Shown here: piece by piece, positions 15,929-18,913 of the stretch
Position numbering within the stretch: position 1 is the stretch's first letter
How the letters are laid out: every line of letters begins with the position of its first letter
The notes under the pieces: generated by a model
Seen by the model: the letters and a program-made list of their open reading frames with translations, nothing else
Told to the model about the DNA's origin: nothing
The model's database searches: none
Origin: a virus
Virus record (IMG/VR): IMGVR_UViG_3300025155_000041
Span: 1-22,615 of that record
DNA length: 22,615 nucleotides
Direction: 5' to 3' (one strand)
Program-made: the position numbers and the translations under genes

Positions 15929-15957
15929 TTGACAAGGTAGCGACCTCATGGTATATT
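15929..15957 (+). promoter_or_regulatory. Promoter P1 (sigma70-type)
   Basis: TTGACA (15929-15934), a spacer of exactly 17 nt and TATATT (15952-15957), then GTGG. The -35 box is perfect and the -10 has one mismatch. The same layout and flanks recur at P2 and P3. The start site would fall near 15964, about 22 nt before the first gene of the operon. Confidence 0.88.
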
Positions 15958-15985
15958 GTGGGAACAATGACACAGGAGAATCCCA

Positions 15986-16165
15986 ATGGCGGAGAAGAAA
16001 CTTCCCACGGTCGACGAGTTGATCGACAGAAACAAGGAGCTTGAGGAGCAGCTGGAATCGGTGGGGCGCAGAGCTCACATGCTGGCCGGCAAACTCGCGA
16101 AGATTCGCGAAGCGTTGGAGGGTGTGCCAGGGTTGCCCGCGACGGCGTACAAGCTTCTGCGGTAA
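15986..16165 (+). CDS. 59-residue coiled-coil protein, first gene after P1
   Basis: ATG at 15986 with ACAGGAGAA upstream and stop at 16163-16165. The protein starts MAEKKLPTVDELIDRNKELE and continues as a heptad-like helix (LEEQLESVGRRAHMLAGKLA), ending in a short Pro/Gly turn and AYKLLR. It is a small coiled-coil protein, perhaps a regulator or dimer partner; I do not recognise a family. It is the first gene transcribed from P1. The stop codon is followed after one base by the first bases of the hammerhead ribozyme, so cleavage would leave this coding sequence on the 5' product. Confidence 0.82.
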   Translation: MAEKKLPTVDELIDRNKELEEQLESVGRRAHMLAGKLAKIREALEGVPGLPATAYKLLR

Positions 16166-16166
16166 G

Positions 16167-16242
16167 CTTCCCAGGTCGAAACCCAACGACGGGAGTCGTA
16201 GGGTAGCAGCGTAGATGCGTTGCCTGATGAGACCACAGGAGG
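16167..16242 (+). ncRNA. Type II hammerhead ribozyme
   Basis: All parts of the hammerhead fold are present. The core CTGATGA is at 16224-16230 and GAA plus the paired A at 16178-16181. Stem III is ACCCAACGAC (16181-16190) with GTCGTAGGGT (16195-16204), one A/A mismatch, capped by the GNRA tetraloop GGGA. The UH site is T16204-A16205, with predicted cleavage between 16205 and 16206. Stem I is GCAGCG (16206-16211) with CGTTGC (16218-16223), including one G-U pair, and loop TAGATG. Stem II is GGTC (16174-16177) with GACC (16231-16234), then an internal loop and CTTCC (16167-16171) with GGAGG (16238-16242). Stem II is the open helix, defining type II. It fills the gap between two genes exactly. 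Activity is predicted, not shown. Confidence 0.92.
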
Positions 16243-16247
16243 ATGCG

Positions 16248-16454
16248 ATGTACCGCATGACAAAGAGCGAACGACGTAAGGCGCGCAAGGCCGCACGGGC
16301 AGAGAGCCAACCATTGACTGGCGAGTTAGCGATTGAACGCAACTCACAACCAGAAGAGTTCTCAGAAACTCGTCGTGGTTACGTTGCGCGGGATCGGTGG
16401 GCGCGACGGTATGATGAACTCAACGGTGCGCCGGAAAGCGAATACGATCGTTGA
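16248..16454 (+). CDS. Small basic protein downstream of ribozyme
   Basis: 68 residues from the ATG at 16248, chosen because AGGAGG lies 5 nt upstream; earlier in-frame starts lie inside the ribozyme. The start MYRMTKSERRKARKAARAES is strongly basic, and the second half is more acidic (RRYDELNGAPESEYDR). The basic helix could bind nucleic acid, but no family is recognised. Its ribosome site is within stem II of the hammerhead ribozyme, so its translation may depend on ribozyme folding or cleavage. A strong hairpin follows at 16467. Confidence 0.8.
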   Translation: MYRMTKSERRKARKAARAESQPLTGELAIERNSQPEEFSETRRGYVARDRWARRYDELNGAPESEYDR

Positions 16455-16466
16455 GACAGCACCTCA

Positions 16467-16501
16467 CAAACCCACGAGGGACACGATCCTTCGTGGGTTT
16501 G
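16467..16501 (+). terminator. Strong hairpin, terminator-like
   Basis: Arms CAAACCCACGAGGGA (16467-16481) and TCCTTCGTGGGTTTG (16487-16501) pair over 15 positions with one G-U, loop CACGA. The GGGTTT end of the stem is typical, but no T-run follows. It closes the P1 unit and lies just before P2. Confidence 0.75.
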
Positions 16502-16528: not shown

Positions 16529-16557
16529 TTGACAACTCCCAAACCTGATGGTATGAT
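16529..16557 (+). promoter_or_regulatory. Promoter P2 (sigma70-type)
   Basis: TTGACA (16529-16534), 17-nt spacer, TATGAT (16552-16557), then TGTGG. The bases ATGGTAT at the spacer end match P1. Predicted start near 16564, only a few bases before an ATG at 16568. Confidence 0.88.
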
Positions 16558-16597
16558 TGTGGATGCAATGCCATGCCCACATGCGACCAACTTTCCC

Positions 16598-18340: not shown

Positions 18341-18381
18341 GCCCACGCCACACATGCAGCAGGCAGTGCAGTCATGCCTAA
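18148..18381 (+). CDS. Small zinc-binding protein
   Basis: 77 residues with ACAGGAGAG before the ATG. CRNC (17-20) near the start and HTCSRQC (68-74) at the end form a split four-cysteine site, as in CRxC...CSxxC zinc fingers. The middle (SGDNRLLAPLAMLLKDGELA) is mixed. Its start lies inside the extended upstream reading frame and its end overlaps the next start (ATGCCTAA). It is one of several zinc-ribbon genes in this operon. Exact function unknown. Confidence 0.78.
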   Translation: MLIHTGTDCAHTGFGLCRNCREPMRVKYSGDNRLLAPLAMLLKDGELAPRNGQEFKITYTLLALSPRHTCSRQCSHA

Positions 18382-18913
18382 CTCGAGCTTGCCCCAAAGG
18401 ATCACACAGTCGTTGGCAGTACAATGTGGTCATGTCTTTGCGTCATGTGTCTGCATTCGCGCTGCAGGTCACACTGGTCCACACGTATGTGACTGTGGTG
18501 GAGCCGTAGGCGATGGTGTAGAGCCTGTAGTCTATGCGATGCCTAAGTTTCCAAGATTACTAACATCTGAGACCGTCGAGGCATACGCGGCTCAGTGGAA
18601 GGAGTCCTGCGTGCGATGCAATCGTGAGATCGTGCCTTTCGGCGCAGCATCCGGGGCAAACGACGATGGAGTGTGTCTCGTGTGTTTGGCTGAGGCAGAT
18701 GGATACATAAGTGTCATTGCCTGGATGGAAGCACAAGAAGAAATGCAGTCAACCAACGATGCAATCGAAGCTATCATCATCGGGCTGGATTATCTGACCT
18801 TTGAGGGCACAGATGATGACTTGAAACAGGCACTTAAGCTTCGATCAAAGCAGAGCGGAGTGTCTGTCGAGGTCCAAGTCAAAGCAATAGTTGATAGGTT
18901 GACCTTGCGATGA
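18374..18913 (+). CDS. Cysteine-rich phage protein, two zinc sites
   Basis: 179 residues. The first site is CVCIRAAGHTGPHVCDC (25-41), a C-x-C...HxGxHxCxC pattern known from phage and actinobacterial proteins that bind zinc. The second is CVRC (79-82) with CLVC (101-104), a zinc ribbon. The C-terminal third is helical and acidic (FEGTDDDLKQALKLRSKQSG). The ATG overlaps the previous gene by 8 nt. A nucleic-acid-linked role is possible; function unknown. Confidence 0.78.
   Translation: MPNSSLPQRITQSLAVQCGHVFASCVCIRAAGHTGPHVCDCGGAVGDGVEPVVYAMPKFPRLLTSETVEAYAAQWKESCVRCNREIVPFGAASGANDDGVCLVCLAEADGYISVIAWMEAQEEMQSTNDAIEAIIIGLDYLTFEGTDDDLKQALKLRSKQSGVSVEVQVKAIVDRLTLR

Follow-up and report, generated by a model that had tools for sequence, protein, structure and literature searches.

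Natural type II hammerhead ribozymes, those of bacteria and phages, are represented in Rfam by RF02276 and were described by Perreault et al. in 2011 (PMC3088659), where a processing of phage transcripts was proposed for them. Tandem prokaryotic hammerheads in the same setting were reported there to cleave in vitro, those of A. tumefaciens also in E. coli. The published type II consensus contains a pseudoknot between loop I and the tail; according to the same paper, many hammerheads are without this contact. Type I and type III hammerheads (RF00163, RF00008) have the catalytic core in common with type II and differ in the open stem. In a later review (PMC6155905) the role of prokaryotic hammerheads was treated as an open question and their link with phages was stressed.

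The window analysed here is the whole stretch of 22,615 nucleotides of IMG/VR virus record IMGVR_UViG_3300025155_000041. The element found in it at 16167–16242 (+) shares with the type II hammerheads of RF02276 and PMC3088659 the core, the order of the stems (stem II being the open one), the NUH site, the phage setting and the position beside small unknown genes; unlike the published consensus, it has no loop I–tail pseudoknot and lies below the Rfam cut-off. Since many hammerheads are without that contact according to PMC3088659, the lack of the pseudoknot is within the known range. The element is a new example of a ribozyme kind known from phages since 2011; the suggestion in the original prediction that its gene context may be new is mostly not upheld, hammerheads flanking small unknown phage genes having been described (PMC3088659, PMC6155905). 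Taken as a whole, the locus very probably carries a type II hammerhead of the non-pseudoknot subclass that lies between two genes of an uncultured phage and would cut their transcript into single-gene mRNAs.

Source phage and gene context

Genes for a terminase, a portal-like protein, a capsid protein and an endolysin on the minus strand mark the source as a tailed phage; the plus strand carries small genes. The part of the plus strand around the ribozyme is as follows.

15929–15957 (+): sigma-70-like promoter TTGACA-17-TATATT with extended TG, before the two-gene unit (11/12 matches)
15986–16165 (+): upstream small gene, 59 aa, stop codon TAA at 16163–16165
16167–16242 (+): complete hammerhead element together with the outer helix of stem II (sequence, fold)
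16237–16242 (+): Shine–Dalgarno AGGAGG of the downstream gene (sequence; 5 nt before ATG 16248)
16248–16454 (+): small gene of 68 aa downstream of the ribozyme; viral contigs contain 7 relatives
16467–16501 (+): strong hairpin of 15 bp that follows the downstream gene and lacks a T-run; it may mark the 3' end of the unit

The stop codon of the upstream gene is followed by 8 nt and then by stem II, and 13 nt separate stem II from the ATG of the downstream gene; promoter and terminal hairpin frame both genes. It is possible that this hairpin is a terminator of another kind or a stabiliser of the mRNA end. The operon, called early in the original prediction, may be so, judging by gene layout alone. 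No PHROG or Pfam match was obtained for the 59-aa protein. Where other contigs carry a relative of the downstream gene, no hammerhead accompanies it; the ribozyme is therefore not tied to that gene.

Promoter-like sites at 15929–15968 and 16529–16570 (+) have CCTSATGGTAT and TTGTGG in common around the −10 box, and an exact recurrence of CCTSATGGTAT was found only at the next promoter (16529–16557); the common motifs suggest a repeated phage-specific promoter. Further downstream, the C-terminal part encoded by 18374–18913 (+) shows weak similarity, below the Pfam cut-off, to a FitA-like ribbon-helix-helix antitoxin domain.

Search for orthologous copies: the best terminase among the matches listed was less than 30% identical for named phages, and identity reached 68% for viral contigs. 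Contigs were collected through both flanking genes, the large and small terminase and a neighbouring cysteine-rich protein, and the loci so found were also scanned with covariance model R1 (below); no orthologous copy of the ribozyme was present in them. A DNA search of named phages gave no match to the region and, with the ribozyme alone, one match at chance level. No close relative of the phage covering the ribozyme region was found.

Sequence and fold of the ribozyme

All elements of a type II hammerhead are read directly from 16174–16234 (+) of the window; with the outer helix of stem II the whole element extends over 16167–16242.

16167–16171 (+): outer stem II 5' strand CUUCC, partner GGAGG 16238–16242 within the Shine–Dalgarno (fold)
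16174–16177 (+): stem II 5' strand GGUC, partner GACC 16231–16234 (sequence, fold, model R1)
16178–16181 (+): core G12 A13 A14 A15.1 (sequence; invariant in alignment A2)
16181–16204 (+): stem III with GNRA-type loop GGGA 16191–16194, one A·A mismatch and closing A15.1–U16.1 pair (sequence, fold)
16203–16205 (+): GUA triplet of the cleavage site; the cut is predicted to fall between A17 (16205) and 16206 (sequence)
16206–16223 (+): stem I hairpin, loop UAGAUG 16212–16217 (sequence, fold; columns covary in relatives)
16224–16230 (+): core C3 U4 G5 A6 N7 G8 A9, CUGAUGA (sequence; invariant in A2)
16231–16234 (+): stem II 3' strand GACC (sequence, fold)

Stem I is formed by GCAGCG 16206–16211 with CGTTGC 16218–16223; stem III by CCC 16182–16184 with GGG 16201–16203 and ACGAC 16186–16190 with GTCGT 16195–16199, the A·A mismatch (16185/16200) standing between these two parts. 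A CA/ACA internal loop separates stem II from the outer helix CTTCC/GGAGG. Stems I and III are closed by loops and stem II is open, which is the type II arrangement. Both core strands, CUGANGA and GAAA, are present; GAA (G12 A13 A14) occupies 16178–16180, and A15.1 (16181) pairs with U16.1 (16204). The triplet GUA conforms to NUH, and position 17 is A or C in each of the 71 non-redundant hammerheads scanned, the window included.

In the minimum free energy fold these same helices are formed (−33 kcal/mol, z −3.7; 1 of 200 shuffles as good); when a longer transcript is folded, no more than about 45% of the ensemble is predicted to contain stem II. A core-plus-helix scan (CTGANGA, GAA, NUH, three helices) gave this single site on both strands of the window. 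The element has the make-up of a type II hammerhead; the original prediction, according to which all hammerhead parts stand in the right order, is borne out by direct reading, fold and scan. The core positions useful for mutation are C16224, G16226, A16227, G16229, A16230, G16178, A16179 and A16180, and of the core mutants that had been suggested as controls C16224 and G16229 are suitable; 16228 is not, being the variable N7.

Occlusion of the Shine–Dalgarno: the hammerhead might also gate translation, the outer helix of stem II hiding the downstream Shine–Dalgarno until cleavage, or a ribosome ending the upstream gene, opens it. CTTCC 16167–16171 does pair with GGAGG 16238–16242 in the fold (probability 0.80), and the upstream stop ends 1 nt before the 5' strand of the outer helix; however, the probability of this helix is 0.31–0.33 in the longer transcript context, most of the Shine–Dalgarno is paired as well when the 3' product is folded by itself, and pairing of the Shine–Dalgarno with the 5' flank was found in only 13 of 62 other hammerheads. 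A translation switch in the window would be a side hypothesis only, and a rather doubtful one, beside the reading as an intercistronic self-cleaving element. Hiding of the Shine–Dalgarno in stem II as a general property of the family was rejected as unsupported on the same count.

Covariance models and covariation

Rfam was searched at the gathering cut-off and at E ≤ 10 with the 22.6 kb, with 301 and with 83 bases; no match to the window was obtained at any threshold, the 37-bit gathering cut-off of RF02276 included. A significant hit to the Rfam type II model had been proposed as a check of the original prediction, its lack as a refutation; taken by Rfam alone, this check went against the ribozyme. 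The silence of Rfam was rejected as evidence of absence, obvious hammerheads being missed as well: 8 loci of viral contigs (6 distinct hammerheads), found by a short pattern and with all helices intact, are also without an Rfam match. RF02276 is an insensitive test, because only 1 of 11 other hammerhead-bearing records passes it (51.4 bits); 35, 20 and 16 bits were recorded in three more. A substantial part of the type II hammerheads of phages falls below the Rfam cut-off. When RF02276 was compared with viral contigs L001–L020, most phage hammerheads were missed, above all the non-pseudoknot ones, and R1 recovered them.

Model R1 was built from alignment A1, which consists of 21 hammerheads from other viral contigs with the window excluded. 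It scored the window element at 47.8 bits (E 6e-12, filters off); the second-best place in the window reached 8.2 bits. In A1, 98% of cells pair, a percentage partly selected by the helix filter with which the sequences were gathered, and 117 double-sided changes were counted vs 35 in shuffles; the underlying search patterns fixed few or no stem I pairs, and slid controls collapse. With the window added to the alignment, 100% of cells pair across 14 inner pairs. The compensatory changes for which a search had been recommended are thus found in the stems, in relatives that are helix-filtered family members and not orthologous copies. R1, the covarying stems and the same gene position in many phage contigs support the assignment as a type II hammerhead in a phage operon.

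It is highly improbable that the element is a hammerhead that has decayed or lost activity, or a simple hairpin between genes whose only role is to stabilise mRNA ends. The A·A mismatch in stem III and the silence of Rfam would fit decay; against it, no core base has been lost, as would not be expected under drift, the score with the independent model is that given above, and an imperfect stem III also occurs in the same subclass (L060, 8468). A chance arrangement of bases, for which the shortness of the motif might speak, is refuted for practical purposes by the R1 score and by the expectation from 20 Mb of order-1 Markov sequence with the dinucleotides of the window (GAAA form: 2 loose matches, about 0.002 per window; strict form with stem II ≥4 and stem I ≥6 bp: 0 matches), and the exact intercistronic placement also stands against it.

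Subclass and possible loop I contact

The 71 non-redundant hammerheads comprise that of the window and 70 from other viral loci. A pseudoknot was counted where loop I can form at least 4 Watson–Crick pairs with the tail that follows stem II on the 3' side, as in 43 of the 71 (19% with swapped tails). The remaining 28 include the window, where the longest match is 2 bases and a loop I–tail pseudoknot is absent; its hammerhead belongs to the non-pseudoknot subclass. Loop I starts with UA in 18 of the 28 non-pseudoknot hammerheads vs 4 of the 43 with a pseudoknot, and an A usually precedes stem II in the 28. The window has both the A beside stem II and the UA start of loop I. These features only suggest the loop–loop contact named in the original prediction, which is possible; most likely it would be a non-Watson–Crick contact that loop I makes with the internal loop of stem II.

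Five contigs with non-pseudoknot hammerheads (L002, L003, L032, L046, L047) resemble the window: stem II is mostly GGTC/GACC with adjacent A, loop I starts with UA or UG in most, and a downstream Shine–Dalgarno and, in most, an upstream stop are present. Several of them carry clusters of two or three, whereas the window has a single copy. A pattern scan of 84,980 prokaryote genomes gave 15 matches, one of them weakly matching R1; the subclass therefore looks mostly viral.

Placement between genes

Placement was determined in 37 viral records, counting one hammerhead per record, retrieved with patterns that did not contain the flanks. In 27 of 37 (random positions: 2.6) an ORF with 50 codons or more has its stop −6 to +15 nt from stem II, a Shine–Dalgarno with start follows within 60 nt downstream in 31 of 37 (random positions in the same contigs: 5.3), and both occur together in 24 of 37 (random positions: 0.5, maximum 4 in 2000 trials). 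The hammerhead family is frequent in viral contigs and is positioned between genes.

Burkholderia phage BcepC6B (NC_005887, 37633–37713, minus strand) carries a hammerhead between gp42 and gp41 that is matched by the same model (R1, 51.2 bits) and has the same intercistronic placement; it differs from that of the window in its genes, in N7 (C) and in a longer stem III loop. This cultured phage offers a laboratory-tractable case.

Proposed processing of the transcript

A transcript would start near 15965. As soon as transcription has gone beyond about 16242, stems II, III and I would form and the RNA would cut itself after A16205. Of the two products, the upstream mRNA would have the stem III hairpin and a 2',3'-cyclic phosphate at its 3' end; the downstream mRNA would have a 5'-OH, followed by the stem I hairpin and then by the ribosome site for the second gene. 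Each gene would then have an mRNA of its own, and the two mRNAs could differ in decay and translation. Cleavage, its products and the use made of cleavage are what we infer from the arrangement described; the most likely function is this predicted cut after A16205, by which the shared transcript would yield a separate mRNA for each of the two genes.

The stop–ribozyme–start spacing, common to most of the viral relatives found, points to mRNA processing between genes and provides a testable rule. Whether phage type II hammerheads serve as a general intercistronic punctuation is evenly balanced in our judgement: polycistronic RNA would be cut into single-gene mRNAs within the few bases between stop and Shine–Dalgarno, in arrays of up to a dozen per operon, with the window as a single-copy case that also covers the ribosome site.

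Other sites observed

Mycobacterium phage Indlovu (L079 740–831; MW055906, before gene 66): a hammerhead stem I with CTGATGAGACC stands just before the gene; R1 gave only 8.2 bits and the GAAA strand was unmatched; the site is perhaps a degenerate, permuted or chance copy.

IMGVR_UViG_3300025889_000748 (L040; 3600–9100, minus strand): 12 type II hammerheads were found in about 5.5 kb, one between nearly every consecutive gene pair and each followed by a near-identical GAAGGAGGAC ribosome site; the phage collection gave no relative of the contig other than Streptomyces phage Salutena, with a match of 121 bases.

L016 (9384–11771, minus strand) and L019 (184–2483, minus strand): each carries an array of six hammerheads; the copies of ribozyme plus tail in L016 are nearly identical, and their loop I GAGC matches the tail GCTC.
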